From: Tautonia marina
GTDB lineage: Bacteria > Planctomycetota > Planctomycetia > Isosphaerales > Isosphaeraceae
Assembly (NCBI RefSeq): GCF_009177065.1
Contig: NZ_WEZF01000001.1
Coordinates: forward strand, 620,001 to 684,000
Direction of reading: 5' to 3'
DNA: 64,000 bases
Each line of letters begins with the position of its first letter. Positions within the stretch are counted from its first letter, which is position 1. Positions 17,884-33,827 of the stretch are shown here, in pieces. The notes under the pieces are model-generated. The model had not been told where the DNA came from. It was given only the letters and a program-made list of their open reading frames with translations, and searched no databases. The position numbers were made by a program, and so were the translations under genes.

Positions 17884-18798
17884 TCACATGAAGCGTTCCA
17901 GCACGATATAAGCGGCGACGGCGAGGATCGCTCCGGCAAAGACCTTCTGAAGCCGGGGGCCGGAGAGCTGTCGGCCGAGACGGGTTCCGAGCACCATGCC
18001 GAGCAGGCCTCCCACAATAAATTGAGTGGTGATGCCCAGCGGTAACGGTCTGCCTGCCACCAGCAGAGAGCCCACTCCCGATGCACCAATCAGGGCGATC
18101 ACCAGCAGCGAGGTGGCCACGGCGCGGTGGACTCCCATGCCGCTGAACAGGACCAGCGCTGGGACGATCACGAACCCGCCACCGACCCCGAACAGGCCGG
18201 ACAGAACCCCTGTGACCAAGCCCACTCCGGCAAGCAGCATCGCGCATCGGGTACTCATTGTCAGACGACCCGAGGGATCGCGGCGGCAGGTCGGGCCGGG
18301 CTCGTCGCTCGGGATCGGTTCGAAGCGGGCACGGACGGCGAGCGAATCGGCAGGCCGAGAATTGGCCTTGAACCACATGCGAGACGCGACCAGAACCATC
18401 AACCCTGAAAACAAGAGTAGCAAGAGAGGGCCCGGCAACTGGCCATTCATCCAGGAGCCGATCGGGGCCCCCGCCATCCCCGCGACCGCGAAGATCAGAC
18501 CCGTGTGGACTTCGACCTCACCGGATCGGAGCCGCTGGAAAAAGCCGAACAGGGCGGTTGCTCCCACCGCCGCGAGCGAAATGCCGACTGCCTCATTCGG
18601 ACGGATGCCAAGCCCGTAGACCAGAAGCGGCACGGCGAAGATGGAACCGCCTCCGCCCGTCAGCCCGAGCGAAAAGCCTACGATCGCGCCAAACGCCAAG
18701 CTCAGGACAAGCTGAACGGGATCGCTCACATTCGAGAGCATCTCCGGCGCAATCGTTGCCAGGGCCACGGCCGCGACGATCGAACGCACGACGATCAC
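17884..18798 (-). CDS. TauE/SafE (TSUP) family sulfite/sulfonate exporter
   Basis: 304 aa polytopic membrane protein from a GTG start 8 bp after AGGAG. It has the duplicated TSUP architecture: 'LVLSLAFGAIVGFSLGLTGGGGSIFAVPLLVYGLG' in the first half is mirrored by 'GVGLVTGVLSGLFGVGGGFVIVPALVLFSGM' in the second. It ends with 'VFAGAILAVAAYIVLERF'. TSUP members export sulfite, thiosulfate or organosulfonates. As the distal gene of a sulfide-oxidation cluster, export of the sulfite made by persulfide dioxygenase is the natural inference. A hydrophilic cytoplasmic loop (about residues 165-200) separates the halves. Confidence 0.87.
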   Translation of the reverse strand: MIVVRSIVAAVALATIAPEMLSNVSDPVQLVLSLAFGAIVGFSLGLTGGGGSIFAVPLLVYGLGIRPNEAVGISLAAVGATALFGFFQRLRSGEVEVHTGLIFAVAGMAGAPIGSWMNGQLPGPLLLLLFSGLMVLVASRMWFKANSRPADSLAVRARFEPIPSDEPGPTCRRDPSGRLTMSTRCAMLLAGVGLVTGVLSGLFGVGGGFVIVPALVLFSGMGVHRAVATSLLVIALIGASGVGSLLVAGRPLPLGITTQFIVGGLLGMVLGTRLGRQLSGPRLQKVFAGAILAVAAYIVLERFM

Positions 18799-18893: not shown

Positions 18894-20099
18894 TCAGACC
18901 CGACCTTTGAGCATGCCATGCCAGTAAAGCGAGGGAAGACCTGCCTTCTTCAACAAGAACATGCTGAATCGCTCTTGCGACTGGTCGAAAGGAAAAGTCT
19001 CGGCAGGCTTTTTGTCATAATCGAACTCGGCCATGATCAAGCTGTTGTATCCTGTCACGACCGGACAGGATGTGTAGCCGTCGTACGAGGCGGTGGGAAC
19101 CTCTCCCTTCATGCAGTTCATCAGGTTCTCGACGAGCACGGGAGCCTGCTTGCGAATGGCGGCCCCGGTCTTGGAAGTCGGCAAGCTTGACGCATCGCCA
19201 ATCGCGAAAACGTTCGGAAAACGAACATGGCGAAGTGAAAACTTGTCGACATCAGCCCAGCCTTCAGCATCGGCCAGGGGACTCTGAGCGATGAAGTCGG
19301 GAGGGCCCATCGGCGGGGTGACGTGGATCATGTTGTAGTTCAACACGACCTCGTCTCCCGTGTCGAGCTTGCGGAAGACGGCCTCCTTGCGGTCAGCGCG
19401 GATCTCGATCAGGTTGTGCTTGAACAGGGGTTCGATCCCTTTGCGGGCAACGACCTTTTCGAGTGAGGTGGCGTAGGGTTCGACCGCGAAGATCCGAGGA
19501 GTACCGGTGGCGAAGATCAGCCGAGATTGGTTCCGAACCCCCGAGCGTTGGAACGCTTCCTCTGCCAGGTACATGATCTTTTGAGGGCCGCCTCCACACT
19601 TCACCGGGCCGGAGGGTTGGGTGAAGATGGCGGTTCCGCCGCGGAATTCTTGAATGCTTCGCCAGGTGCTCGGCACGGTCTTGATGTCGTAGTTGCTGCA
19701 CACACCGTCATGACCAACAGCGTCGCGCAGTCCTTTCACCTTATCCCAGTTGATCTGGATGCCGGCGGCGACGATGAGCCAGTCGTAGGTAATGATGTCG
19801 CCATTCTTCGTAGTCACCCGGTGCGTGTCGGGGGCGAACGTCGAGACGGCATCCTTGATCCAGGTCGTTCCTGGAGGAATGAGATCGGCTTCCTCTCGTT
19901 CCGAGTCTTCGGGCTTGTAAATGCCACCACCGACCAGGGTCCAGAGGGGCTGGTAGTAATGTTTTGTCGAAGGCTCAACAATCGCCACGTCCAGCGAGGG
20001 GTCTTGCTGGCGCAACCGCGCGGCCACAGTGATCCCAGCGGTCCCACCACCGACAATGAGGATCTGATGATGTCGTTCCACGATCCGATCTCCCGTCAT
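18894..20099 (-). CDS. sqr: Type II sulfide:quinone oxidoreductase
   Basis: 401 aa FAD flavoprotein. FAD motif 'ILIVGGGTAGITVAARL' at 13-29. The family cysteines are Cys134, Cys168 in 'SGPVKCGGGPQKIMYLAE' and Cys345 in 'YTSCPVVTGY'. The C terminus ('AEFDYDKKPAETFPFDQS') closely follows the mitochondrial SQOR/type II SQR pattern. The enzyme oxidises sulfide to sulfane sulfur or glutathione persulfide and reduces quinone at the membrane. It begins 28 bp after the DUF1641 gene and precedes the TSUP exporter by 95 bp. Its persulfide product is the substrate of the dioxygenase encoded upstream in the same cluster. Confidence 0.93.
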   Translation of the reverse strand: MTGDRIVERHHQILIVGGGTAGITVAARLRQQDPSLDVAIVEPSTKHYYQPLWTLVGGGIYKPEDSEREEADLIPPGTTWIKDAVSTFAPDTHRVTTKNGDIITYDWLIVAAGIQINWDKVKGLRDAVGHDGVCSNYDIKTVPSTWRSIQEFRGGTAIFTQPSGPVKCGGGPQKIMYLAEEAFQRSGVRNQSRLIFATGTPRIFAVEPYATSLEKVVARKGIEPLFKHNLIEIRADRKEAVFRKLDTGDEVVLNYNMIHVTPPMGPPDFIAQSPLADAEGWADVDKFSLRHVRFPNVFAIGDASSLPTSKTGAAIRKQAPVLVENLMNCMKGEVPTASYDGYTSCPVVTGYNSLIMAEFDYDKKPAETFPFDQSQERFSMFLLKKAGLPSLYWHGMLKGRV

Positions 20100-20127: not shown

Positions 20128-20865
20128 TTAGTCGTCGGAGGGGGTGGCGAGATTCTGGCCGAAGCACCGACCGACCTGGACCAGGAAGCTCAACGACCGT
20201 CTAACGTTGGGATCGCCAAGCGCTCGAATGAGACCGACCGGCCCGATCTGCTCCGGAGTCTTGGTCGAGCATGTGTTCTCATGACAGGTCGCCAGCGCTC
20301 GTCCTGTCTTGCCGACGACTGCCAGAGCGTGCGGTTCCAGCACATCGGAGCGGAGCAGGATGCCAAGCCGTTCCAGTTCGGCTTCGCTCACACGCTGCCC
20401 GAGCCAGAGCAGGGCATGAATGCCCTGCCGAAGGCTCGTCTCAACATCAATTCCCTGGGTCACGAGGGTCGCGGCGTACTCGTCAAGGGTATCGACGACG
20501 ACCGCAAGCAGCCCAGGAAGCTGATCGAGTGTTGCCAGGGTCTGTTCGAGTTGACCTGCTCGATCGAGCAGGCGTTCAAGGGCCCGAGAGGTCTCGTGAT
20601 CGGTCAGCCGCTCGGCCAAACGGAGTAGATGGCCGAGCCGTTCATCCGGTCCGGTACCGGTTGCGGTGAGCTTCCGGCACGATTCGTCGAGCGCATCGAC
20701 GGCGGTGGCCATCAACGGGGGAGCCTCATCGGCGAGTCGTTCCAGGCGGGAGACGACGCGATCGATGTGCTCGACCCGCTCCAGAAGACGAGCCATCACA
20801 TCGACTCCCGCCTCACTGGTGGCTTCGTGCAGCCCTCGTCCCTCGGACGGTTCATTTGAGTTCAT
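20128..20865 (-). CDS. DUF1641 family protein, SQR partner
   Basis: 245 aa, helical, Leu-rich and soluble. The middle ('LERLLDRAGQLEQTLATLDQLPGLLAVVVDTLDEYAATL') and the C-terminal 'PNVRRSLSFLVQVGRCFGQNL' resemble DUF1641, a family usually encoded next to sulfide:quinone or related flavoprotein oxidoreductases. The C-terminal half carries two Cys in 'ATCHENTCSTKT'. It lies 60 bp after the persulfide dioxygenase gene and 28 bp before sqr. A role as accessory, membrane-docking or persulfide-accepting partner of SQR is inference. Confidence 0.8.
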   Translation of the reverse strand: MNSNEPSEGRGLHEATSEAGVDVMARLLERVEHIDRVVSRLERLADEAPPLMATAVDALDESCRKLTATGTGPDERLGHLLRLAERLTDHETSRALERLLDRAGQLEQTLATLDQLPGLLAVVVDTLDEYAATLVTQGIDVETSLRQGIHALLWLGQRVSEAELERLGILLRSDVLEPHALAVVGKTGRALATCHENTCSTKTPEQIGPVGLIRALGDPNVRRSLSFLVQVGRCFGQNLATPSDD

Positions 20866-20925: not shown

Positions 20926-22329
20926 TCAGCTGCCCACCGACTCGGTGGGAGCGTTCGAGGCAGCCCATGCCTTGTAGCCGCCGACGAGGTCGGTGACCCG
21001 GTCTCGGCCATGCCTGCGGAGAAGGCTGGCGGCGATCGACGATCGGTATCCTCCCTGACAATGAACGACGACGTCACGATCGGCCGGAACCTCGTCAATT
21101 CGTTCAACCAGGTGGCCAAGGGGAATGTGTAACGATCGTTCGATTCGGCCGGCGTCGCGCTCTTTCTCCGAGCGAACATCGAGGATGACTGGAGCCTGGT
21201 CGCTTGCGAGGTGCTCGGCCAGTGCCGGAGCGGTGATGCGGGGAGTCGAGCGAAGCAGGTCGTCCCGGCCGTCGAGGGCCCCCATGCCTCCCTTGAGGTA
21301 GCCGGCGGCGTTATCGAAGCCGATCCGCCCCAGCCGCATGATGGCCTCCTCCTCGTCACCGGTCTCAGCGATGACCACGATCGGGCGATCATGGCTCAGA
21401 ACCGTGCCGCACCAGGTCGCATACTGCCCCTTCAAGCCCACATTGATGGCCCCGGCCAGGTGGGCCCCTTCGAAGTCGGCGGCTTCTCGGACATCGAGGA
21501 CCTGGGCTCCCTCGTCTCGAATGCGGAGGAATTCGTCAAGATCGAGGGGCCGAAGGGCTCGCTTCATCGTCTCGTCGAGGCTCGATCGCTCCTTGCGGTT
21601 CAGGATCGCGTCGTGAACGAAGTAGTCGGGGGCGTCGGGCTGGTCAACCTCGACCAGCTTGATGAACTGCTCCTTACTCATGGGCTGTAAGGCATAATTG
21701 TATTTCTTCTGTTCGCCGATGGTTGAAACCCGCTCGGTGCTGAGCTGCTTGCCACAGAGCGAACCCGCGCCATGGGCCGGATAGATGAGGGTTTCGTCAG
21801 GAAGTTTGACAAGCTTATTCGTGATTGAGTTGTAGAGCATTTCGGCCAGTTCGTCGGCGGTGACGCCGATGGAGGCGAGCAGGTCGGGGCGGCCCACATC
21901 GCCGATGAACAGTGTGTCGCCGGTCAGGACCGCGTGGGGTTGCGTGTCGCTCTTGGTCAGGTCGTAGGCGAGAATCGAGATCCCCTCGGGAGTGTGGCCG
22001 GGAGTCTCCAGAATTTCCAGGCGAACGTCGCCAAATTCAACTACATCGCCATCCTTGACGGGTGTGAAGTCGTATTCGGCCTCGGCGCGAGATCCAAGAT
22101 AGATATGAGCCCCCGTACGGTCGCGCAACTCGATATGCCCGGCGAGGAAGTCGGCGTGGAAGTGCGTCAGAAACACATACCGGATCGACCAACCGTTCGC
22201 CTCGGCGTCGCGGACGTACTGATCAATGTCGCGCTGCGGGTCGACCACCGCGGCGATTCCCGTACGCTCGTCGACGATCATGTACGAAGCATGAGCCAGG
22301 CAGCCCAGGTAGTATTGCTCGATTTTCAT
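20926..22329 (-). CDS. Persulfide dioxygenase-like MBL protein fused to two rhodanese domains
   Basis: 467 aa. Residues 1-250 are a metallo-beta-lactamase fold of the ETHE1/persulfide dioxygenase group with His56, His58, Asp60 and His65 in 'LTHFHADFLAGH'. Two rhodanese domains follow. In the first (about 265-365) the active-site loop reads 'VVIAETGDEE', with no cysteine. The second has the loop 'HCQGGYRSS', with the catalytic Cys. Persulfide dioxygenases oxidise glutathione persulfide to sulfite; the active rhodanese could move sulfane sulfur to thiosulfate. It is the first structural gene after a sigma-54-like promoter, and its ATG is preceded by GGAGAGAG. Confidence 0.92.
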   Translation of the reverse strand: MKIEQYYLGCLAHASYMIVDERTGIAAVVDPQRDIDQYVRDAEANGWSIRYVFLTHFHADFLAGHIELRDRTGAHIYLGSRAEAEYDFTPVKDGDVVEFGDVRLEILETPGHTPEGISILAYDLTKSDTQPHAVLTGDTLFIGDVGRPDLLASIGVTADELAEMLYNSITNKLVKLPDETLIYPAHGAGSLCGKQLSTERVSTIGEQKKYNYALQPMSKEQFIKLVEVDQPDAPDYFVHDAILNRKERSSLDETMKRALRPLDLDEFLRIRDEGAQVLDVREAADFEGAHLAGAINVGLKGQYATWCGTVLSHDRPIVVIAETGDEEEAIMRLGRIGFDNAAGYLKGGMGALDGRDDLLRSTPRITAPALAEHLASDQAPVILDVRSEKERDAGRIERSLHIPLGHLVERIDEVPADRDVVVHCQGGYRSSIAASLLRRHGRDRVTDLVGGYKAWAASNAPTESVGS

Positions 22330-22421
22330 GGTCGGACTCTCTCCATCGACGCTCCCCAGCAGGAGCGTCCCGAAATTCCGGGCAACGTGATCCGTGGTCT
22401 CGAACGACGAAACACGTCAAG

Positions 22422-22437
22422 AGCACGAATCGGGCCA
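22422..22437 (-). promoter_or_regulatory. Sigma-54 -24/-12 promoter candidate for sulfide operon
   Basis: On the minus strand the sequence is TGGCCCGATTCGTGCT. The invariant GG and GC are separated by exactly 10 bp, and most other positions fit TGGCACG-N4-TTGCA/T (A to C and T to G changes). It lies about 93 bp before the ATG of the persulfide dioxygenase gene, downstream of a gene for a sigma-54 activator in the same orientation. Found by eye, not scored. Confidence 0.5.
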
Positions 22438-22542
22438 AGGCTCGGATGGCTGTTGGGGAAATTGGTGTAAGTTTAGGTGGAGTCTGGAGATGAAAAATTC
22501 GATCAGCGGCGGTAATGCCCGAAAACGGTGAAATGGGTCCGC

Positions 22543-22573
22543 GTGTTAAGCGTGGGGGTGTTAAGGTGTTAAG
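22543..22573. repeat. Three GTGTTAAG direct repeats, candidate activator sites
   Basis: GTGTTAAG occurs at 22543-22550, 22558-22565 and 22566-22573 (starts 15 and 8 bp apart). They are followed by an imperfect palindrome GTTGGCGCGCTAAC (22573-22586) reaching into the activator stop codon. They lie about 105-150 bp upstream of the -24/-12 element, the usual distance for upstream activator sequences of NtrC-type proteins. Confidence 0.45.
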
Positions 22574-22581
22574 TTGGCGCG

Positions 22582-23976
22582 CTAACCTGAAACAGAGGCT
22601 GCATCGATCGCGTACTTGCGGATCTTTTTCCAAAGGGTGACGCGGCTGGTGCCGAGGAGCCGGGCGGCTTCGGTCCGATTCCCTCGAGTCTGATCAAGGG
22701 CTTCAAGGATGCGGCGTCGTTCTGCTTGATCGGCAGGGCTCAGGGGAATGGAATCGGGAGGGGGCGTCCGTTCCGAGGGTTGTTCGGTGCGGACCTCGAT
22801 GGGCAGGTCGAGCAGGGTGATGGTGTCGCCGCTGACGGTGACGAACGCGTGTTCCAGAGCGTTCCGAAGTTCTCGAACGTTCCCCGGCCAGGGGTAATTC
22901 ATCAGGGCCTGAAGGGCGTCGCGGGCGATGCCTCGAACGGGTCGATGATACTCTCTCGAGAGTTGGTCGATGAAGTGGCGGACAAGGAGAGGCAGATCCT
23001 CTCGCCGCTCGCGGAGGGGTGGTAATCGGATTTCGAACACATGAATGCGATAATAAAAGTCTTCGCGAAAGGCTTGCGAAGCGACCAATTCTTTCAGGTT
23101 CTTGTTCGTTGCCGTGATCAGACGGACGTTGACGCGGGTTGGAGCGTCAGCCCCAACGCGACGGATCTCCCGTTCCTGCAAAACCCGAAGCAATTTCAAC
23201 TGGAGTAGGGGGGAAACGTCGCCAATCTCATCGAGGAACAAGGTGCCGCCTTCGGCAGCCTGGAACAGGCCGATCTTGTCTCGGTCGGCGCTGGTGAAGG
23301 CCCCCTTGACATGCCCGAACAGCTCGGATTCGAGCAGCGTTTCTGGAATTGCCGAACAATTGATGGCGAGAAACGGACGGTCCTTGCGGTTGCTCAGCGA
23401 GTGAATCGCACCGGCTGCCAGTTCCTTCCCGGTGCCGGATTCACCGGAAACGAAGACGGTTACGTCGCTGTGCGCGGCCAGCCGGATCCGGCGGAAGACT
23501 TCCTGCATCGGAGTGCTGGCACCGACGAGCTTGCCGAAGGCGTCTCGATTCCGCGTTTGCTCTTCCAATAACGCGATGCGTTCGTTGGCCTGAAGAAACG
23601 GCGTGAGGTCAGAGAAGTTGCAAACGGCCCCGGCAACCTGGCCGTTCGCCTCGTGAATCAGGCGAACGCTGCCGTGGATGGACACCTCGCGGCCGTCCTT
23701 GGCCATGAGCTTGCATTCCTGATGGCAAGTGCCGGTTGTTGCGTCGCACGAGCCCTGGAGCAGCTCGGTGAGTGCTGCGAATCCCTTGCAGTGCGCTCCT
23801 TCAAAGAGCCGGCACGATTGCCCGACGACCTCCTCACTGGCGTATCCGGTGATCCGTTCGGCCCCCCGACTCCAGGCCACAATGCGGCCCGAGGCGTCGA
23901 CGGTGAACACGCCGTCGGCCATCTCATCGACGATGGTGCTCAGGAGGCTCGGGTCGCGTCGGAAGTCGAGGTCCAT
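22582..23976 (-). CDS. PAS-AAA-Fis sigma-54 activator with Cys-rich PAS domain (FisR-like role)
   Basis: 464 aa. N-terminal PAS domain (about 12-125) contains Cys55, Cys63, Cys77, Cys84 and Cys88 clustered in the ligand region. The AAA+ domain has Walker A 'GESGTGKE' at 178-185, Walker B-like 'GGTLFLDEIG', and a sigma-54 contact loop reading GAFTSA (225-230) instead of the usual GAFTGA. A C-terminal Fis-type helix-turn-helix includes 'NRTEAARLLGTSRVTLWKKI'. There is no receiver domain, so the signal is sensed directly by PAS. It is encoded 252 bp upstream of the sulfide genes and 36 bp after the epimerase gene. In Cupriavidus, FisR activates sqr/pdo through sigma-54; a similar role here is inferred from position and cysteines. 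Confidence 0.88.
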   Translation of the reverse strand: MDLDFRRDPSLLSTIVDEMADGVFTVDASGRIVAWSRGAERITGYASEEVVGQSCRLFEGAHCKGFAALTELLQGSCDATTGTCHQECKLMAKDGREVSIHGSVRLIHEANGQVAGAVCNFSDLTPFLQANERIALLEEQTRNRDAFGKLVGASTPMQEVFRRIRLAAHSDVTVFVSGESGTGKELAAGAIHSLSNRKDRPFLAINCSAIPETLLESELFGHVKGAFTSADRDKIGLFQAAEGGTLFLDEIGDVSPLLQLKLLRVLQEREIRRVGADAPTRVNVRLITATNKNLKELVASQAFREDFYYRIHVFEIRLPPLRERREDLPLLVRHFIDQLSREYHRPVRGIARDALQALMNYPWPGNVRELRNALEHAFVTVSGDTITLLDLPIEVRTEQPSERTPPPDSIPLSPADQAERRRILEALDQTRGNRTEAARLLGTSRVTLWKKIRKYAIDAASVSG

Positions 23977-24012: not shown

Positions 24013-24429
24013 TTAAGGGTTGCTCGGTGGTTCGCACAGTTCGGTCAGCACGCCGTGAGTGCTCTTGGGGTGGGCGAAGGCAATCCGCATGTGATGAGCC
24101 CCGGCGCGGGGGGATTCGTCGATCATGCGGAGCCCGGCCGCTTTCCACTCCGCGATCCGATCCTCGATCCGATCGACGGTGAACGCGACGTGGTGCATGC
24201 CTTCACCGCGCTTGTCGAGGAAACCGGCGATGGTGCTGGTCGGATCAGTCGGTTCGAGTAACTCGAAGCGGACATCTCCGATGCGAAAGAAGCCAACGCG
24301 CACCTTCTGGTCCGCCACGACCTCGATTCCTTCGAACTCGGCGCCGAGCGTTTCCTCGTAGTACGGACGGTGATCATCGATCGATTTCACCGCGATCCCG
24401 ATGTGGTTGAGTGCCTTGACGGGAGCCAT
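24013..24429 (-). CDS. mce: Methylmalonyl-CoA epimerase
   Basis: 138 aa, two glyoxalase-like halves. Metal-binding residues are visible in 'LNHIGIAVKSIDDH' near the N terminus, in 'RFELLEPTDP', 'MHHVAFTVDRIED' and at the C terminus 'TELCEPP'. The enzyme interconverts the S and R forms of methylmalonyl-CoA, linking the carboxyltransferase to the B12-dependent mutase. It is the last gene of the methylmalonyl-CoA cluster, 40 bp after the biotin carrier gene. Length is typical for the family. Confidence 0.95.
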   Translation of the reverse strand: MAPVKALNHIGIAVKSIDDHRPYYEETLGAEFEGIEVVADQKVRVGFFRIGDVRFELLEPTDPTSTIAGFLDKRGEGMHHVAFTVDRIEDRIAEWKAAGLRMIDESPRAGAHHMRIAFAHPKSTHGVLTELCEPPSNP

Positions 24430-24469
24430 CGTGAAGGTTCCTGTTCCAGAGAGTTGATCGGGGCCGGAG

Positions 24470-24862
24470 TTATTCGAACTCGATCAGGACCTGACCTTGC
24501 TGGACGCCATCTCCTTCTGCTGCGTTGATCTTGGAGATCTTTCCGGCGATCGGGGCGGTGATGACGGTTTCCATTTTCATCGCTTCAAGCACGATGAGAA
24601 CGTCGTTGACCTGGATCGACTGGCCAGGCTGGACCGCGACCTTGGAAACGACCCCGGCCAGAGGGCTGCGGCAAACCTTGCTTTCGTCGGCCACGGGAGC
24701 GTGGCCCGCGGCGGCCGAGGGGGGAGCGACGGCGCTCGAAGGGGCAGCCGAAACTCGAGCCTGGCCCATTGGGGGCACATAGCTGTGCCGGGGAGTCTCC
24801 GGCTCGGCCACCTCGACCTCGACCTCGTACACGTTGCCATCAACCGTAATTTTGAGTTTCAA
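24470..24862 (-). CDS. Biotin carboxyl carrier protein (1.3S-type transcarboxylase subunit)
   Basis: 130 aa from a TTG start overlapping the previous stop (TTGA). Residues 1-20 are a short beta segment and 25-60 an Ala/Pro-rich swivel linker. Residues 62-130 form the biotinyl domain with the biotinylation site Lys96 in 'EAMKMET'. This matches the 1.3S subunit of Propionibacterium transcarboxylase and the gamma/biotin subunits of methylmalonyl-CoA or glutaconyl-CoA decarboxylases. The neighbouring 12S-type and 5S-type subunits supply the two half-reactions between which this protein would carry carboxyl groups. Confidence 0.93.
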   Translation of the reverse strand: MKLKITVDGNVYEVEVEVAEPETPRHSYVPPMGQARVSAAPSSAVAPPSAAAGHAPVADESKVCRSPLAGVVSKVAVQPGQSIQVNDVLIVLEAMKMETVITAPIAGKISKINAAEGDGVQQGQVLIEFE

Positions 24863-25176
24863 CGCTCGCTCCTACCATGCTTGATCGCCAGGGTGTGCGA
24901 GGCCTGGACGGTGACGCGGCCCTGTTGAGCCCAGGCAGGCGAGCCGAGCAGCCGGATCTGTCGCACGTGGGCCCGCTTGCCGAGGAAGGCCGCGACTGCG
25001 GCGGCAATGACAAAGACGAGTTCATCGTTGATCGGTGCGGCCACCGAGGGGGCCGTTGCGCCGGCGTTCCCCTTGGCTTCCATGGCTGAGACACGATCGG
25101 TAAGGTGCGCGACCTCGCGGCGGAGGGCCTCAACGGCCTCGACGAGCCTGGCCAGGTCGTTCGGCTCGGAGTTCAT
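24859..25176 (-). CDS. Small acyl-CoA carboxylase/transcarboxylase accessory subunit
   Basis: 105 aa. Residues 8-35 form a short heptad coil ('LVEAVEALRREVAHLTDRV'). Residues 50-66 are a hydrophobic helix ('ELVFVIAAAVAAFLG'), and the C-terminal 'AWAQQGRVTVQASHTL' looks conserved. Position between the carboxyltransferase and the biotin carrier recalls the OadG/MmdD-like delta subunits of biotin-dependent decarboxylases, which tether or assemble the complex. I cannot assign it firmly. It starts 21 bp after the carboxyltransferase stop and its own stop overlaps the carrier start. Confidence 0.7.
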   Translation of the reverse strand: MNSEPNDLARLVEAVEALRREVAHLTDRVSAMEAKGNAGATAPSVAAPINDELVFVIAAAVAAFLGKRAHVRQIRLLGSPAWAQQGRVTVQASHTLAIKHGRSER

Positions 25177-25197
25177 GAGCGTGGTCCTCCGTTCGGG

Positions 25198-26760
25198 TCA
25201 AAGAGGGATGAGGCCGTGCTTCTTGGGGGGGCGAACCTCTCGCTTGGCATGGAGATACTCCAGCGCCTGGGCGAGATGCCGGCGGGTGTCGGCGGGTTCA
25301 ATAATGTCATCGACGAGGCCGCGACCGGCGGAAACATACGGGCTTGAAAAGGTCGATCGGTATTGTTCGATCAACTCGGCACGGCGAGCGGACTTGTCCT
25401 GGGCCTCCTGCATCTCCTTGCGGAAGACGATCTCGACGGCCCCTTCGGCTCCCATGACCGCCACCTCGGCCGTTGGCCAGGCGAAGACGCGGTCGGCACC
25501 GAGATCCTTCGAACACATGGCCAGGTGCGCCCCGCCGTACGACTTGCGCAGGATGACCTGGATCTTCGGTACCGTGGCCGCCGAGTACGCAAAGAGCATC
25601 TTCGCGCCGTGGCGGATGATCCCGTCGTGCTCTTGCTTGACCCCTGGCAGGAAGCCGGGAACGTCCACGAACGTGATCAAGGGAATATTGAAGGCGTTGC
25701 AGAACCGAATGAAGCGGCTGGCCTTGGTTGATGCGTTCACGTCCAGTACGCCGGAAAGCACCGACGGTTGATTGGCGATCACACCGACCGATCGGCCCAG
25801 GATGCGGGCGAAGCCGACCACGACATTCCGTGCGTATCCTTCCTGAACTTCGAGAAAATCGCCCTGATCGACAATGCCGCAAATGACATTGCGGATGTCG
25901 TAGCCTTGCTTCGGCTCGACCGGAACGATCCGAGCCAACTCGGGGTTCGGATCAACGTTGTTCTCCGTGGGAATCCGAGGGGGATCCTCCAGGTTATTCG
26001 CGGGCAGGAAGCTGAGAAGGCGTCGGCAGAGATAGAGCGCTTCCTCATCATTCTCGGCGATGAAGTGGGTGACGCCGGAGAGGCTCATATGAGCGTCGGG
26101 TCCGCCGAGGGCCTCGGACGTAATGACTTCGCCGGTCACTTGTTTGATCACCTGAGGGCCGGTGATAAACATTTGTGATTGGCGTGTCTGGATGATGAAG
26201 TCGGTCAGGGCGGGCGAATAGGCCGCTCCTCCCGCGCACGGTCCACAGATCAACGAGATCTGAGGAACCGCGCCCGACAGTTGCACGTTTGTGTAAAAGA
26301 CACGTCCGTATCCGGAGAGGGAGTCGATCCCTTCCTGCACCCGAGCGCCGCCGGAGTCGTTGATGAAGATGAAGGGGCTGCCGGTATGCAGCGCCTGCTC
26401 CATCACATCGGCGACCTTGTTCGAGTGGACCTCACCGGCCGAGCCTCCCAGCACGGTAAAGTCCTGGCTGGCGAGGTGGACGAGTCGGCCGTCAATGGAA
26501 CCGGCTCCGGTGACGACGCCATCAGCCGGAACCTCCTTGCCCGCCATGCCGAAGTGGACCTGGCGATGCTGTGCGAAGAGGCCGAACTCCTCGAAGCTGT
26601 CGGGGTCAAGCAAGGTACTGACGCGTTCCCGGGCGGTGAGCTTGCCTTGCTCTTTCTGCTTGGCCAGGCGATCGGGACCGCCCCCTTGACGGAGATGGTC
26701 CTTGCGGTTGCGGAGCTCCGCGACCAGGTCATCCATCGATTTCTTCGGATTGCCGCTCAT
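25198..26760 (-). CDS. Methylmalonyl-CoA carboxyltransferase 12S-type subunit / propionyl-CoA carboxylase beta
   Basis: 520 aa, complete carboxyltransferase with N and C crotonase-like halves. 'KLTARERVSTLLDPDSFEEFGLF', the acyl-CoA oxyanion loop 'NDSGGARVQEGIDSLSGYG' and 'GPCAGGAAYSPALTDFI' lie in the N half; 'FVDVPGFLPGVKQEHDGIIRHGAKMLFAYS' and 'SYGGAHLAMCSK' in the C half. It transfers carboxyl between carboxybiotin and propionyl-CoA. There is no biotin carboxylase (AccC-like) gene in the cluster, while a pyruvate/oxaloacetate carboxyltransferase lies directly upstream. The assembly is therefore better read as transcarboxylase than as ATP-dependent carboxylase. Confidence 0.93.
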   Translation of the reverse strand: MSGNPKKSMDDLVAELRNRKDHLRQGGGPDRLAKQKEQGKLTARERVSTLLDPDSFEEFGLFAQHRQVHFGMAGKEVPADGVVTGAGSIDGRLVHLASQDFTVLGGSAGEVHSNKVADVMEQALHTGSPFIFINDSGGARVQEGIDSLSGYGRVFYTNVQLSGAVPQISLICGPCAGGAAYSPALTDFIIQTRQSQMFITGPQVIKQVTGEVITSEALGGPDAHMSLSGVTHFIAENDEEALYLCRRLLSFLPANNLEDPPRIPTENNVDPNPELARIVPVEPKQGYDIRNVICGIVDQGDFLEVQEGYARNVVVGFARILGRSVGVIANQPSVLSGVLDVNASTKASRFIRFCNAFNIPLITFVDVPGFLPGVKQEHDGIIRHGAKMLFAYSAATVPKIQVILRKSYGGAHLAMCSKDLGADRVFAWPTAEVAVMGAEGAVEIVFRKEMQEAQDKSARRAELIEQYRSTFSSPYVSAGRGLVDDIIEPADTRRHLAQALEYLHAKREVRPPKKHGLIPL

Positions 26761-26781
26761 CGCTTCCTGTCCTTTCTCGGA

Positions 26782-28296
26782 TCACGAGGGCTCGACGGTC
26801 ACCGCGTGGCTCGTGTTGCCGATGCGGACCTGATAGGTGATGGGGCTGGTGACGGGACCTTTCGCGTCGATGGCCTTCGCCGCCGGGCTGGCAGCTGCCG
26901 CCGCGGCCGCCGCGGTCACCGGGTCCTTGCCAAGATTTATCGGCCCCTCGCCGCGGTGGGCAAAGAACTTCGGGGCGACCTGCGGGAACATGGCGTAGGT
27001 CAAGACGTCTTCATCCGAGCCGTCGCACCCTTCAAGGGCCAGTGCCTTGCTGCGGAGCTCCTCCCATTCCGGCTTGAGCAAGTCGGCGGGGCGCGTGGTG
27101 ATCGGCTCCTTCTTGGCGTGAGCGGCGGCCAGGGCGATGACCTCGGGGTCACGATCACCGAGGGTTTCACCGTAGTAGCCGAGCATCAGGTCGGCAAACT
27201 CTCCGGTGAGAACCTTGTACGGACCCATCAATACATTGAACACCGCCTGAGTGCCAACGATCTGGCTCGACGGCGTGACCAGTGGCGGGTAGCCGGCGGC
27301 CTTGCGAACGTTGGGAACCTCGTTGAGCACGTCCTTCACACGGTCGCCGGCCCCTTGCTGCTTGAGCTGGCTTTCCATGTTCGAGATCATGCCGCCGGGG
27401 ATCTGGCTGTCGAAAATCTCGGTTTCGACACCGACGAACTTCGACTCGAACTCAGCATAACGCGGACGAACCTTGGCGAAGTGGTCCTTGATCTTCAGCA
27501 AGCGGTCCTTATCGAGCCGGGTTGTATAGTCGGTGCCCTGGAGCATCTCGACCAGGGCCTCGGTCGGATTGTGGCCGGGGCCGAGGCTCAGGGAGGAGAT
27601 GCAGGTGTCCACGATGTCGGCCCCGGCCTCGATCGCCTTCATCAGGCTCACGAGCGTCACGCCCGTCGTGGCGTGAACGTGAACATGAACCAGCGTATCC
27701 TGCCCGCAGGCCTCTTTGATCCCTCGGACGATCTCATACGCTGGTTGCGGGCGCAAAAGCGCGGCCATATCTTTAATGCAAATCGAGTTGCAGCCGAGAT
27801 CCTGCAACTGCTTGGCCATCTCGATGAACTTGTCGACCGTGTGCAAAGGGGAGGTAGTGTAACAGATTGTCCCCTCGGCGTGCTTGCCGGTGCGACGAAC
27901 CGCTTCGAGAGCACGGCGGAGGTTCCGGATGTCGTTCAAGGCATCGAAGACACGGAAGACATCCATGCCGTTCTCGGCCGATTTGTCGACGAAGCGGTCA
28001 ACCACCGTGTCTTCGTAGTGACGGTAGCCGAGCAGGTTTTGCCCACGGAGGAGCATCTGCAATCGGCTGTTGGGCATCAGTTTGCGAAACGTTCGCAGGC
28101 GTTCCCAGGGGTCCTCGTTGAGGAATCGGATGCAGGAGTCGTAGGTCGCCCCTCCCCAGCACTCGACGCTCCAGTAGCCGGCCTGGTCGATGTCCTCGCA
28201 GATGGGCGTCATGTCCTCCAGGGCCATGCGGGTCGCCAGGAGGCTCTGGTGACCGTCTCGGAGGGCAAGCTCCGTGACCTCAACCGTTCGTGGCAT
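26782..28296 (-). CDS. Transcarboxylase 5S-type subunit (pyruvate/oxaloacetate carboxyltransferase)
   Basis: 504 aa from ATG 28296, preceded by GGAG at suitable distance; an in-frame TTG at 28311 is less likely. The TIM-barrel motif 'VTELALRDGHQSLLATRM', the Lys region 'CIKDMAALL' and metal-binding 'HVHVHATTG' fit the carboxyltransferase domain of oxaloacetate decarboxylase alpha, pyruvate carboxylase and 5S transcarboxylase. The C-terminal part is the conserved PYC/OADA association domain, then an Ala-rich linker. It lacks an attached biotinyl domain. No membrane OadB subunit is present in the cluster, so a sodium-pumping decarboxylase is unlikely. Confidence 0.92.
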   Translation of the reverse strand: MPRTVEVTELALRDGHQSLLATRMALEDMTPICEDIDQAGYWSVECWGGATYDSCIRFLNEDPWERLRTFRKLMPNSRLQMLLRGQNLLGYRHYEDTVVDRFVDKSAENGMDVFRVFDALNDIRNLRRALEAVRRTGKHAEGTICYTTSPLHTVDKFIEMAKQLQDLGCNSICIKDMAALLRPQPAYEIVRGIKEACGQDTLVHVHVHATTGVTLVSLMKAIEAGADIVDTCISSLSLGPGHNPTEALVEMLQGTDYTTRLDKDRLLKIKDHFAKVRPRYAEFESKFVGVETEIFDSQIPGGMISNMESQLKQQGAGDRVKDVLNEVPNVRKAAGYPPLVTPSSQIVGTQAVFNVLMGPYKVLTGEFADLMLGYYGETLGDRDPEVIALAAAHAKKEPITTRPADLLKPEWEELRSKALALEGCDGSDEDVLTYAMFPQVAPKFFAHRGEGPINLGKDPVTAAAAAAAASPAAKAIDAKGPVTSPITYQVRIGNTSHAVTVEPS

Positions 28297-28380
28297 CGTT
28301 CGGGGCTCCAATCAGGGAGAAGGGAAATCGATCAATCGGGAGAGCGAGGAGAGGTTGGGGAGCAGCGTCGGGGTTCAACA

Positions 28381-29424
28381 TCAGTCTGAAGGCGGGGGGG
28401 GAGCGCCCAGAAGGCCGAGGGCATCGATCAGCCGATCCGCGGCGGCCGAGGCGGTGAGCCGGCCCTCGCGAACCTTCGATTCGAGATCCGCAGTCAGGTT
28501 CGCCATGCCCGGTCCTTCTCTCAGGATACGCTGCAATTGGTCGTTCACCAGATCCCACATCCAGCGAATCGCCTGGCTCTGCCGGCGCTGCTGGAACACC
28601 CCGACTCGTTCGAGTGTCTGGCGATGTTCCAGCACCTGATTCCAGATCGCGTCAAGCCCCACATTCTCGAGCGCACTGCACGCCAGCACCGGCGGTTGCC
28701 AGGGGCTTTCGGGAGGGTGCATCACGCGCAAGGCTTTCCGATACTGGTTGACGGCGCGGAGGACTTGCGGACGGTTCGTGCCGTCGGCCTTGTTGACGGC
28801 GAGCAGGTCGATCATCTCGATCAGCCCTCGCTTGATCCCCTGCAACTCGTCTCCGGCTCCGGCAATCAAGACGGCGAGGAAGGTATCGACCATGTCGGCA
28901 ACGGTCGTCTCGGATTGACCCACACCGACGGTTTCGACCAGCACAACATCAAAGCCGGCGGCTTCGCAGGCCAGCATCGTCTCCCGGGTGCTTCGGGCCA
29001 CGCCGCCAAGGGTCGCCCCGCTCGGAGAGGGGCGGATGTAGGCGTTCGGCTCAAGACTGAGGTGTTCCATGCGGGTCTTGTCGCCAAGGATGCTCCCGCC
29101 GGTGATCCGGCTGGACGGGTCAATCGTCAGCACGGCGACTCGGTGGCCGGCGTGGATCAGATTCAGGCCCAGGGCCTCGATCAGGGTGCTCTTGCCCGCG
29201 CCGGGAACTCCCGTAATTCCCAGGCGGATGGAGTGGCCGGTGTGAGGCAACAACTCGTTCAGGACGCGACGGGCCAGATGACGGTCGTCGGCCCGGCGCG
29301 ACTCGATCAGGGTGATGAACCGACTGAGCACGCCTCGCGATCGCGCCAGAACCCCCTCAACGTACTGCTCGGCGGAGAGCCGTCGTCGTGCGGGGGGAAT
29401 CGGGGGCTCGGGCGGGAGCGTCAT
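28381..29424 (-). CDS. meaB: Methylmalonyl-CoA mutase-associated G3E GTPase MeaB
   Basis: 347 aa. Walker A 'GVPGAGKSTLIEALG', the switch region 'SRITGGSILGDKTRM', 'ETVGVGQSE' (Walker B/switch) and the guanine-specificity motif 'NKAD' are all present. The family (MeaB/ArgK/MMAA) gates cobalamin loading and protects methylmalonyl-CoA mutase. It sits 51 bp after the mutase large-subunit gene, exactly where such a chaperone is expected. Both N-terminal arm and C-terminal dimerisation arm appear complete. Confidence 0.96.
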   Translation of the reverse strand: MTLPPEPPIPPARRRLSAEQYVEGVLARSRGVLSRFITLIESRRADDRHLARRVLNELLPHTGHSIRLGITGVPGAGKSTLIEALGLNLIHAGHRVAVLTIDPSSRITGGSILGDKTRMEHLSLEPNAYIRPSPSGATLGGVARSTRETMLACEAAGFDVVLVETVGVGQSETTVADMVDTFLAVLIAGAGDELQGIKRGLIEMIDLLAVNKADGTNRPQVLRAVNQYRKALRVMHPPESPWQPPVLACSALENVGLDAIWNQVLEHRQTLERVGVFQQRRQSQAIRWMWDLVNDQLQRILREGPGMANLTADLESKVREGRLTASAAADRLIDALGLLGAPPPPSD

Positions 29425-29475
29425 GGCGGGCTCAACAGGGTCAGGTCACGGGCCATCGGTCGTCGTCCGGACGCA

Positions 29476-31680
29476 TCAGGCGGCGCCGGCGGGTTCCTCG
29501 TGGTCCTGGGGATCAAGCAGGTTGAGTAGCTTGAGGGCGGCGTCGGTGATCACGGTCCCAGGACCGAAGACGGCGACCGCGCCGGAGCGGTACAGTTCCT
29601 CGTAATCCTGAGGAGGGATGACACCGCCAACGACCACGAGGATATCGTCGCGGCCAAGGTCGTCGAGCGCCTTGCGAATGGCGGGAACCAGCGTCAAATG
29701 CCCGGCCGCCAGCGAGCTGACGCCAACCAGGTGGACGTCGTTGTCCACGGCCACTCGGGCGGCTTCCTCGGGGGTCTGAAACAGGGAGCCGACATCCACG
29801 TCGAAGCCGAAATCGGCGAAGGCGGTGGCCACGACCTGCTGACCGCGGTCGTGCCCGTCCTGGCCGAGCTTGGCAATGAGAATTCGGGGGCGTCGGCCTT
29901 CGTGTTCGAGGAATTGCTCGACCCGCTGCTGAACGCGAGCGACCGCCCCCTTGCGCTCACCGAACTGACGGGCATAAATCCCACTGATTTCGTGCATCTC
30001 CGCCTTGTGCCGTCCGTAGACCTTTTCGAGGGCGAGGCTGATCTCGCCTCCGGTCGCCCGGGCTCGGGCCGCGGCGATGGCCAGTTCGAGCATGTTGCCC
30101 GAGCCGGATCGGGCGGCCTCGGTCAGGGCGTTGAGCGTGGAATCGACGGCGGCTTGATCACGGTTCGCCCGCAGTTCGGCCAGTCGGCGGACCTGAGCCT
30201 CTCGGACGGCGTGGTTATCGACCTTGAGAACCTTGATCGGATCTTCGCGCTCAAGAATGTACTTGTTCACGCCCACGATGGTTTGCACGCCCGAATCAAT
30301 ATCGGCCTGGGTCCGCGCGGCGGCTTCCTCGATCCTCATCTTGGGAATACCGGCTTCGAGCGCCTTGGCCATGCCGCCGAGTTGCTCGACCTCGTACAGG
30401 TGAGCCCAGGCCCGGTGGGCCAGTTCGTGCGTCAGACGCTCGATGAAATAGCTGCCGCCCCAGGGATCGACCACCATGTCGGTGTCGGTTTCTTCCTGAA
30501 GGAAAAGCTGAGTGTTGCGGGCGATCCGGGCCGAGAAGTCGGTCGGAAGCGCCAGCGCTTCGTCAAGCGAGTTGGTGTGGAGGCTCTGCGTGTGACCCTG
30601 GGTCGCTCCCATCGCTTCGATACAGGTGCGGATCACGTTGTTGTACACGTCTTGGGCCGTCAGGCTCCACCCGCTCGTCTGGCTATGGGTTCGAAGGGAC
30701 ATGCTCTTGGGGTTCTTCGGGTCGAACCCCTTGACGATCTTTGCCCAGATCAGGCGAGCCGCGCGAAGCTTGGCGATCTCCATGAAGATGTCTTTGCCAA
30801 TCGCCCAGAAGAAGGAAAGGCGGGGGGCGAACTCGTCGATACTCAGGCCCGCCCGGATGCCGGAGCGAAGGTACTCCAGGCCGTCGGCCATCGTGTAGCC
30901 GAGTTCCAGGTCGGCCGTCGCGCCGGCCTCCTGCATGTGGTATCCGCTGATGCTGATGCTATTGAACTTCGGCATGTGAGCCGAGGTATAACGGAAAATG
31001 TCGGAAATGAGCCGCATGCTCGGCTCGGGGGGATAAATGTATGTATTCCGGACCATGAACTCCTTGAGGATGTCGTTCTGGATCGTCCCGGCGAGTTTTT
31101 CCTGGGGAACCCCCTGTTCCTCGGCGGCGACGATGTACAGTGCCATCACCGGAAGGACGGCGCCGTTCATGGTCATCGAAACGCTGATATCCCCGAGTGG
31201 AATCCCGTCGAACAGAATCTTCATGTCGAGGATACTATCGACGGCGACGCCGGCCATGCCCACGTCGGCGGCGACCCGGGGGTTGTCCGAGTCGTAGCCG
31301 CGGTGGGTCGGCAGGTCGAAGGCGACAGACAGCCCCTTCTGACCCGCGGCGAGGTTGCGGCGGTAGAAGGCGTTCGACTCCTCGGCCGTCGAGAACCCGG
31401 CGTACTGCCGGACGGTCCAGGGGCGGACGACGTACATCGTCGTGTACGGCCCCCGGACGAACGGCGGGAGGCCGGGCATCGTCTGGAGATGGTCCAGCCC
31501 GTCGAGGTCACTCGATGAGTAGAGCGGCCGGACGGGAATCCCTTCGGGGGTCGGCCGGGCGAGGGACTCGATCGGCCGACCAGCCTCGGCCTCGGCGGCG
31601 GCTTGCCACCGCGTTCGATCGACCGAGGATGCGGAACCGCCCTTCCAGGGAATATCCTTGAAGTTTGGGATCGTGCTCAT
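29476..31680 (-). CDS. Methylmalonyl-CoA mutase, large (catalytic, B12-binding) subunit
   Basis: 734 aa from ATG 31680, which overlaps the small-subunit stop (ATGA); a longer frame to 31734 is rejected. The TIM-barrel motifs '[21 protein letters not shown]', '[12 protein letters not shown]' and '[15 protein letters not shown]' belong to the substrate domain. The C-terminal cobalamin domain has the base-off B12 signature '[10 protein letters not shown]' followed by '[11 protein letters not shown]'. It isomerises (R)-methylmalonyl-CoA to succinyl-CoA, or the reverse in the propionate-forming direction. Co-translated with its non-catalytic partner. Confidence 0.96.
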
Positions 31681-33827
31681 TGCAGGGCCCCTTCCTCGCG
31701 CAGCAGATCCCGGAGCGTCCCCAGGACGTCGCATCGGATAAAGATGAATCGATCGACGCCGGCCGCGCGGTATCGGGCCTCGCCCGCTCCCGGATTGCCG
31801 GCCAGGATGACGGTTCGAGCCCCGGCGGCCTTCAAGGCCGATGCCAGGGGTTCGGCCAGGGTGTCGTAGTTCGCGTCGGTTGAGCAGATGACGGCAATCT
31901 TCGCCCCACTCTGGGCGAAGGCGGCGGCAGCGGCTTGAGGATCGGCAAAACCGTCGTTGTTGACCTCCTCGAAGCCACCGGCCTGGAAGAAGTTCACGGC
32001 GTAGGTTGATCGGGCAATAAACTCGGCCGGTTTCCCCAGGTTCGCCAGGAAAACGCGGGGACGCTGGCCGGTTTGCTCGGCGAGTTGGTCGGCGGCGGCC
32101 CGAAGTTCCTCGAACGCGGCGGCGTAGGGATGGACGGCCAGAGGAGTCACCTGGGCCGGTTTCCCACCGGTTGACGCCTCAGCCAGGGTTGCGTGAAGCA
32201 GGCCGAGCGTTGCCCCGTCGAGGGCGGCCTGTACGGCGGCCTCGGTCAGCGAGCCGGGGGAGCGGTTTGTGTCGCGAGCGACCTCGGCGACAGTCTTCAG
32301 CGAGTCACCGCATTGGTGGTCCCGACGCCAGGCGACGAGCCGCGTGGAGGCCTCGGCGCGGAGCCGGGCGTAATCGGGGCGGGTGCGGACGAGCCGTTCC
32401 TCCCGAACGTCGGGATGCTCGGTCACGCCGGTGACCACGAGCTTGCGGGTGGCGATGTCTTTCTCCCGAGCGGTCTCGACCGCCGTGATTTGCTCCGCAA
32501 CCCAGCCATCGAGACAGGCGGCAATCATTCCACCGCGAGCCTCGACCTGCTGGAACAGTTGCCAGGCCGATTCGGCCAGTTGATCGGTCAGCGATTCGAG
32601 GAACCAGGAGCCCCCGGCCGGGTCGATCACGCGGTTCAGGTGAGACTCTTCCTGCAAGATGATCTGCGTGTTGCGGGCCAGGTGCCGGGTGAAATGGTCG
32701 CTCAGGCCGATGGCGGCGTCCATCGGAGCCGTGCCAATGGCGTCGGCTCCTCCCACGGCCCCGGCAAAGCAGCAGACCGTGTTTCGCAAGAGGTTGACCC
32801 AGGGGTCAACGCTGGTGAGCACGCGGCGGCTGGTTCGGGCCCGAAGCTGCATCGTGCGGCCGGTATCGGGGTCGCCGCCGCACTCGGCGACGACGCGAGC
32901 CCACATCGCCCGGAGGGCCCGGAGCTTGGCGATCGCCCGGAAAAACTGGGTGCCGAGGCTCACCCCGAAGGCGATTTGCCGGGCGGCCGTGTTCACGTCG
33001 AGCCCGGCCGCGGTCATCGCCCGGAGGTATTCGAGCCCTGTGGCCACGGCGAACGCGAGATCCTGCGTGCTCGACGCCCCGGCATGGTGGTACGGGCCGG
33101 TGCCGACCTCCACGGATGTGGCATTCGGATACTTCGAAGCGGTCCAGACGGCCAGATCGGCCAGCTCCGTCAACGCCGAGTCGAGCGGCACACCGAGGCG
33201 ACCGTCTCGCATCAAGGCGCCGATGGGGTCGGCGTTGAAGGCGCATCGAACCGAAGCCGGGTCGATCGCTCGCCGCTGCAACTGGGCCGCCAGCAGGGCC
33301 GCGGCGGGCAGGAACGCCCCTCCACAGTCGATTGAGACAGGGGCGATGTCGAGCCGAACGGCTTCGAGCACCCGATCGAGATCCCCGAGCGAATAGGCCA
33401 TCACCCCATCGTGCCCGGCGAGGCCGATGGCCGCGCGATCGTCGGCGTCGAGCCCGGCGCAGGCGGCGGCATCCAGACGAAGCTGGATTGAGGTCACACC
33501 GTGTTCGAGGTCGTCGAGGATGGCCCGATTTGCCTCAACCGGGTCGGGGTGCAGATGCTCCTGGCGAATATCCCAGCCCGAGACGGCATTGCCGAGCACG
33601 CGATCGCCCCGGGTCAGGGGGGCAAACCCCGGGAATCCGGACGGATCACCGGCCGCGGACCAGTGGTCGGCCGTGTACAGGGGCTGAATGTCGATGCCTT
33701 CAAAGGTCCGGCCGACGAGCTTTTTCTCGAACGGCGCGCCCTTGAGTTCGGCCTCGGCGTTCTTCCGCCATTGCTCGTACGAGCTTGGAGGAAAATCGAC
33801 GGTGATGTTCAGATCCTTCTCGATCAT
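31677..33827 (-). CDS. Methylmalonyl-CoA mutase, small (non-catalytic) subunit
   Basis: 716 aa with the same layout as the large subunit. The barrel includes '[15 protein letters not shown]', '[17 protein letters not shown]' and '[15 protein letters not shown]'. The C-terminal flavodoxin-like domain has '[16 protein letters not shown]' where the active subunit has DxHxxG, so the cobalamin-ligating His is missing. That is normal for the heterodimer's small chain. It is encoded 42 bp after the CoA-transferase gene. Confidence 0.94.

Follow-up and report, generated by a model that had tools for sequence, protein, structure and literature searches.

A putative sigma-54 promoter with an upstream activator-site array before a sulfide-oxidation operon of a planctomycete

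Background

FisR of Cupriavidus pinatubonensis is, reportedly from the work of Li and colleagues in 2017, a sigma-54 activator of sulfide-oxidizing genes. According to excerpts of the published accounts, FisR regulates sulfide oxidation in both Cupriavidus and Acinetobacter (PMC7315123, PMC9774590, PMC12170894, PMC8614764), has three conserved cysteines (PMC9774590), and in Cupriavidus senses sulfane sulfur through its cysteines in the form of a C53-C64 tetrasulfide (PMC8614764). In Acinetobacter baumannii, the available portion of the report describes FisR (A1S_1707) as a sigma-54 activator adjoining an operon for persulfide dioxygenase (PDO), sulfide:quinone reductase (SQR) and TauE (A1S_1708-1711) with a predicted sigma-54 promoter, and sulfide induction is lost upon deletion of fisR (PMC7315123). 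Two further systems bear on the arrangement of sites. In the NorR-norV system, as given in an excerpt, the activator is of the one-component type and three enhancer sites precede the sigma-54 promoter (PMC2941729). A comparative study of the Desulfovibrio vulgaris sigma-54 regulome, also available in part, reports tGGcacg/tTGCt as the sigma-54 consensus and predicts a palindromic site for an activator (PMC4641369).

Here we analyze a 64-kb stretch of planctomycete DNA (the window) in which the gene of a sigma-54 activator precedes a PDO-DUF1641-SQR-TauE gene run. From the sequence comparisons below we consider it very probable that the gap between the two holds an upstream activating sequence and a sigma-54 promoter, from which the adjoining PAS-AAA+-Fis activator drives the run. 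Such regulation would resemble, by description, the way in which FisR governs sulfide oxidation in Proteobacteria. Gene order and promoter fit a sigma-54 activator of PDO and SQR, and it is from this fit that we infer the control itself. As far as the excerpts on A. baumannii go, both loci have a sigma-54 activator adjoining a PDO-SQR-TauE operon, whereas fisR there is opposite in direction to its operon and the planctomycete activator is co-directional. In contrast to Cupriavidus FisR, the planctomycete protein has as its sensor a PAS domain in which four cysteines (C55, C63, C84, C88) are conserved, and the PDO is a fusion of metallo-beta-lactamase (MBL) and rhodanese parts in a different phylum. 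Each of the four cysteines is kept in 20 of 21 planctomycete activator orthologues, which also sets these apart from A. baumannii FisR. The likeness to NorR-norV lies in the three GTTAGCGC-type sites found in G440, G316 and G392; NorR senses nitric oxide through a GAF domain, and its operator sequence is different.

The comparative approach is that of the D. vulgaris regulome study, the main text of which lacks the words 'sulfide' and 'cysteine' and, in the part available, offers no counterpart regulon (PMC4641369). Similarly, 'persulfide' and 'rhodanese' are absent from the main text of a sigma-54 regulon survey that includes Planctomycetia (PMC12316311). A narrow literature search found no work uniting any three of planctomycetes, sulfide quinone, persulfide dioxygenase and sigma-54, and among the literature matches listed for the sites themselves, the 12-mer GTTAGCGCTAAC and the 14-mer GTTAGCGCGCTAAC were absent and only the 10-mer TTAGCGCTAA was present, under titles on other subjects. 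The type of switch is known, and its operator, the binding-site code, is apparently undescribed. Planctomycete sulfide-oxidation genes thereby gain a likely regulator, promoter and operator code, and the comparison of promoters from genomes that have the cognate activator with promoters from genomes in which it was not found shows how a motif call that is weak by itself can be settled.

Results

Gene order and the activator

The activator and PDO genes both lie on the minus strand, separated by the 252-bp gap (22330-22581) to which the first-pass annotation had drawn attention (Table 1). The run PDO-DUF1641-SQR-TauE is probably an operon, whose genes would be co-transcribed. Among solved structures, the best sequence matches of the PDO are 3tp9 and 3r2u; the best NCBIfam model of the SQR-like protein is SQR_III_seleno, at 237 bits, under the cut-off of 525 for that model. 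The window's own genome, labelled G000, encodes sigma-54 (rpoN; PF04963, E = 7.3e-55, G000:C18).

Table 1. Features of the activator-PDO locus, listed from upstream to downstream on the operon strand
Feature	Position in window	Strand	Basis or remark
Activator gene, 464-aa one-component enhancer-binding protein, PAS + sigma-54 AAA+ + Fis-type HTH	22582..23976	-	Pfam
Near-palindrome GTTAGCGCGCCAAC, candidate activator site, overlaps activator stop codon	22573..22586	-	Kept in 3 genomes of genus
Half-site variant CTTAACAC (GTGTTAAG on +), copy 1	22566..22573	-	CTTAACAC in G003, CTTAACGC in G001
Half-site variant CTTAACAC, copy 2, abutting copy 1	22558..22565	-	Sequence count, three-genome alignment
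Half-site variant CTTAACAC, copy 3	22543..22550	-	CTTAACGC in G003, GTTAACAC in G001
Putative sigma-54 -24/-12 element TGGCCCGATTCGTGCT, TGGCCCG-ATTC-GTGCT	22422..22437	- (operon strand)	GG 22435-22436, GC 22423-22424
Predicted transcription start	22411	-	By convention, 12 nt after C of GC
Predicted leader hairpin GACGCTCC-loop-GGAGCGTC, between predicted start and PDO start codon	22348..22369	-	Predicted
PDO, first gene of probable operon: MBL + two rhodanese stretches, persulfide-dioxygenase-like	20926..22329	-	Domain + structure-match search
DUF1641 protein, second gene	20128..20865	-	Domain search
SQR-like flavoprotein, third gene	18894..20099	-	Domain + NCBIfam search
TauE/SafE family exporter, fourth gene	17884..18798	-	Domain search

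The activator has the Pfam domains PAS, Sigma54_activat (PF00158), AAA_lid_14 and HTH_8 (PF02954), and the motifs GESGTGKE (Walker A), GAFTSA (L1 loop) and GGTLFLDEI, so that the sigma-54 AAA+ domain, Walker A and B motifs, loop and DNA-binding domain of a bacterial enhancer-binding protein are all present. The helix SRVT[LM]WKK of the HTH domain is found in all 19 of the 21 orthologues whose sequence reaches it, and the activator of G003 is the one without C55. The L1 loop (residues 225-230) reads GAFTSA and not GAFTGA in the window species and in G003, and the exact GAFTGA is present in 13 of the 21 orthologues; this loop variant and the missing C55 of G003 weigh against our main reading. 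In NorR, according to an excerpt, exchange of the GAFTGA glycine for Asp or Asn bypasses repression by the sensor (PMC2941729); by analogy, looser control of the activator is possible in G000 and G003. A separate observation concerns the activator orthologue of G374 (G374:C120, L120), which lacks C63, C84 and C88 and carries GAFPGA. No PDO was detected in that genome, and the orthologue looks like a regulator decaying after loss of its target.

Motif statistics in the window

The element TGGCCCG-N4-GTGCT is present as annotated, with exactly 10 bp separating GG and GC, and agrees with TGGCACG-N4-TTGC at 10 of 12 consensus positions, which is weak taken alone; its -12 box is GTGC instead of TTGC, a point that we count against our main reading. 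The pattern GG-N10-GC occurs 1141 times in the window against 1108 expected and is uninformative, TGGCACGN4TTGCW with at most two mismatches occurs 8 times against 7.0 expected, which is chance level, and the identical 15-mer TGGCCCGATTCGTGC is found again at 35221 within a coding frame. For these reasons a score of the element from the window alone was rejected as evidence. When the 300 bp upstream of the PDO are shuffled, 0.8% of 500 shuffles attain the promoter score of this region and none of the 500 attains its four half-sites.

The repeats stand out more clearly, with three copies of GTGTTAAG in 64 kb against 0.11 expected, all three in the gap. They had been described as three copies, two of them abutting, about 105-150 bp upstream of the element, and this is what we find (Table 1); the repeats begin at 105 bp and end at 136 bp. 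The gap had also been called a complete control region, of which the element and the triplet stand and the completeness does not, as the wider motif occurs a fourth time, in the form GTTAGCGC(GCCAAC) at 22573-22586, and carries the array on to 22586; this copy had been missed.

Within the window's genus, the palindrome is kept in the three activator-carrying genomes (as GTTAGCGCGCTAAC in G001), and judged by this alignment it is the most conserved site of the gap. The CTTAACAC triplet is kept, with changes, only in these same genomes (G000, G003, G001), as two exact copies plus CTTAACGC in G003, and in G001 as a single exact copy accompanied by CTTAACGC and GTTAACAC. The columns identical in the three species number 36/48 in the array, 17/100 in the spacer, 9/18 in the element, 39/93 in the leader and 18/41 in the 3' end of the activator gene; the leader value is near that of the element, so that identity among the three species is by itself not enough to make the element stand out, which counts against the main reading.

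Comparison of PDO promoters with and without the activator

Orthologues of the activator, with 57-93% identity to the window's protein, are uncommon. In the order, 4 of 45 genomes have one (E <= 1e-110), among them the genome of the window, and in a second family 16 of 170 do (E <= 1e-130); of 397 genomes drawn from the class, 18 give matches (E <= 1e-100), three of them only 45% identical. PDO orthologues are commoner than the activator in the second family (54/170, E <= 1e-150) and are found in 8 of 45 genomes of the order (E <= 1e-100), one being a 42% identical paralogue. We compared the upstream regions of 58 PDO orthologues, from 16 activator-positive genomes and 42 genomes in which no activator was found (38 of 41 from the second family and 4 from the order). 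Excluded were G236 and G155, with upstream sequence absent from the set, G356, with a partial gene, and the distant PDO paralogues of G064, G084 (two), G093 and G000, and G286 was retained despite an upstream region of only 171 bp. Outside the 58 are the activator-positive genomes without a detected PDO (G018, G218, G365, G374, G434, and the distant G256, G391 and G226). An activator counts as absent when nothing matched at E <= 1e-130 in the second family, with at most 9 candidates per genome fully scored, or at E <= 1e-110 in the order; a repeat search of nine of the 42 (G269, G407, G140, G119, G149, G206, G331, G008, G014), in which all candidates were scored, likewise yielded no full-length match.

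A -24/-12 element scoring at least 9/12 and starting between -115 and -50 from the start codon is present in 16/16 activator-positive promoters versus 2/42 of those without an activator found. At least two TTARCRC/GYGYTAA half-sites per 300 bp are present in 15/16 versus 2/42, the sixteenth activator-positive promoter, that of G286, being cut by the contig end. The Fisher p value is 7e-11, uncorrected for phylogeny and with lineages that are non-independent; the promoters from genomes with the activator come from 10 genera. G269 and G407, draft genomes of the genus g144 that are 91% and 62% complete, depart from the pattern in both element and half-sites. Their promoters predict a full-length activator, which was not found in either genome; full promoters without the activator could be due to assembly loss or to another activator. 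A comparison inside one genus, g82, finds the sites in G316, which has the activator, and no half-site in any of the 11 activator-negative genomes examined.

An unbiased k-mer comparison, from which G286, G269 and G407 were left out, gives the same pattern, with GCGCTAA in 12/12 activator-positive promoters outside the window's genus versus 0/40 negatives. The half-site GTTAGCGC likewise occurs in 12/12 activator-positive promoters of another family and in 0/40 activator-less ones, and TTAGCGC is found 28 times in those 12 promoters versus a shuffle mean of 0.43. By this sequence comparison the site conserved across families is GTTAGCGC/GCGCTAAC. Since CTTAACAC and GTTAGCGC share TTARCRC, the GTGTTAAG monomers are most simply variant half-sites, and are best read, on sequence grounds, as the genus's variant of the palindrome half-site GYGYTAA. 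The geometry is similar throughout: in the 17 promoters measured, 15 from activator-positive genomes and those of G269 and G407, the predicted start is preceded at a distance of 122-204 bp by the half-sites that lie upstream of the element. G143 and G260 have further half-site matches just downstream of the element. As candidates for further conserved elements, TAAGTCA (4/18 promoters) and an IHF-like site between enhancer and promoter (a match in 1/18) are inconsistent.

The first-pass annotation had itself named conservation in orthologous gaps as the test of its reading. The element passes that test; of the repeats, the half-site GTTAGCGC/GCGCTAAC is conserved and the exact CTTAACAC triplet is not, being changed even within the genus. 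Its proposal of an enhancer for the activator encoded next door, based on position, orientation and spacing, gains support from the co-occurrence of activator and sites in these genomes. This comparative evidence is decisive, and the window statistics alone would not carry the interpretation.

Unlinked activators and the search for a wider regulon

In 5 of the 16 activator-positive genomes the PDO promoter does not adjoin the activator, and all five such promoters have the element and half-sites. Activator and PDO are 1.1 Mb apart on one contig in G093, the promoter keeping element and half-sites, and lie on different contigs in G417, G131, G404 and G402, with no PDO in the 1.1-1.5 kb after the activator. 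The reverse situation is seen in G018, where the activator is present and a PDO was not found; GCGCTAACTTAACAAGTTAGCGC and TGGCCCGTTTTTTGCA stand at and after the activator stop codon before a different gene, by eye membrane-fusion protein-like, and are accompanied by a -24/-12 match. Since the unlinked pairs keep the sites and G018 keeps them with no PDO found, the sites, judged by their distribution, go with the activator. In G218, also activator-positive with PDO not found, an intergenic cluster of GTTAACAC, GTGTTAAG and GTTAGCGCTAAC (G218:C191:7515-7556, L166) lies about 130 bp from a contig end and is possibly the missing target promoter.

Exact TTARCRCCTTARCRC occurs only at the PDO locus of G000, G003 and G001 among 8 genomes searched, and with at most one mismatch it has a single place, at the locus, in each of these three. 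GTTAGCGCTAA gave 13 rows at 10 distinct places in 9 of 27 genomes, of which five are the PDO promoters of G392, G084, G131, G417 and G316 and one is the G218 intergenic cluster; those in listed frames (G365 twice, G440:C143) and at a frame edge (G099) were judged to be chance. With at most one mismatch allowed, GTTAGCGCGCYAAC has an additional match, with one mismatch, in each of G003 and G001, and a single exact copy in G013, where the activator is missing; no frame of at least 150 aa spans this copy. In 5 control genomes without the activator, exact GTTAGCGCGCCAAC occurs elsewhere in G013 and two one-mismatch copies occur in G022, which likewise counts against the main reading. The searches with TTARCRCCTTARCRC, GTTAGCGCTAA and GTTAGCGCGCYAAC thus gave no genome-wide enrichment indicative of a wider regulon, because the reversed control pattern was as common or commoner in most genomes.

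Discussion

In the mechanism that we propose, the activator would bind, about 130-175 bp before the predicted start, the array of TTARCRC half-sites that the near-palindrome GTTAGCGCGCCAAC and the three CTTAACAC monomers make up. Looping of the DNA would bring it into contact with RNA polymerase-sigma-54 at TGGCCCG-N4-GTGCT (22422-22437), and opening of the promoter would lead to transcription of the PDO-DUF1641-SQR-TauE operon. The signal would most likely be sulfide-derived sulfane sulfur, sensed at the cysteine-rich PAS domain.

Were the -24/-12 match due to chance, the operon would have to use another promoter, as the chance-level motif counts of the window and the copy of the 15-mer at 35221 could be taken to suggest; however, the element is conserved in position with the activator (16/16 versus 2/42), and we give this reading hardly any credence. 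A real sigma-54 promoter could also be combined with an array that is bound by a regulator other than the neighbouring activator, be it a repressor or a co-activator. G269 and G407, with sites and no detectable activator orthologue, are compatible with this, as is an ArsR-family gene (by eye) directly upstream of three activator-less PDO orthologues, in G008, G025 and G066 (L152, L153, L154). These ArsR-like neighbours may mean that other regulators serve PDO, and their occurrence suggests a swap between activator and repressor control. Nevertheless, sites and activator co-occur over 10 genera, unlinked cases included, and in G018 they are found together, with a -24/-12 match, before another gene where PDO was not found, which makes a different regulator of the array improbable.

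The composition of the array allows for another reading, in which the palindrome GTTAGCGCGCCAAC is the sole activator site and the CTTAACAC monomers either serve another factor or have arisen as a by-product. A half-site matrix built from the 12 promoters of the other family ranks the palindrome as the 6th best site in 64 kb and fails to recognise the monomers, and the exact tandem pair is present in only G000, G003 and G001 of the 8 genomes searched. On the other hand, the monomers abut the palindrome arm and share its TTARCRC, they are conserved next to a fast-diverging spacer, and TTAACAC occurs 4 times in the other family's 12 promoters against a shuffle mean of 0.21 and a largest value of 2. 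We consider a palindrome-only operator unlikely and keep to the binding of the activator to the whole array as the preferred reading.

More speculatively, these loci might form a planctomycete sulfane-sulfur regulon with a four-cysteine PAS sensor and an operator code of its own, GTTAGCGC/GCGCTAAC, in which palindromes would have given way to a tandem half-site array in the window's genus, promoter and activator still being paired, and in which GAFTSA (G000, G003) may relax control. We put this forward tentatively and would sooner doubt it than rely on it; if true, the enhancer would have turned over while the pairing of activator and target stayed constant.

Some further features of the locus and its relatives were noted. 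A second, distant PDO paralogue (38% identity; G000:C1:615508-616902, L148) lies ahead of the window, with its end about 3.1 kb from the window's first position; the 420 bp upstream of it are without a -24/-12 match and contain one GYGYTAA half-site. Upstream of the activator, co-directional minus-strand genes (24013-31734) belong by eye to a propionyl-CoA/methylmalonyl-CoA pathway; this linkage was rejected as a functional hint, being present in G000 and G003 and not found at the other 14 loci searched, where flanks are often short. A hairpin is predicted at about the same leader position in G003 and G001 as in the window, with a changed stem sequence, in a comparison of 3 sequences only. The Shine-Dalgarno-like AAGGAG is found, on either strand, in 9/12 of the activator-positive 300-bp PDO upstream regions versus 0/40 of the others.
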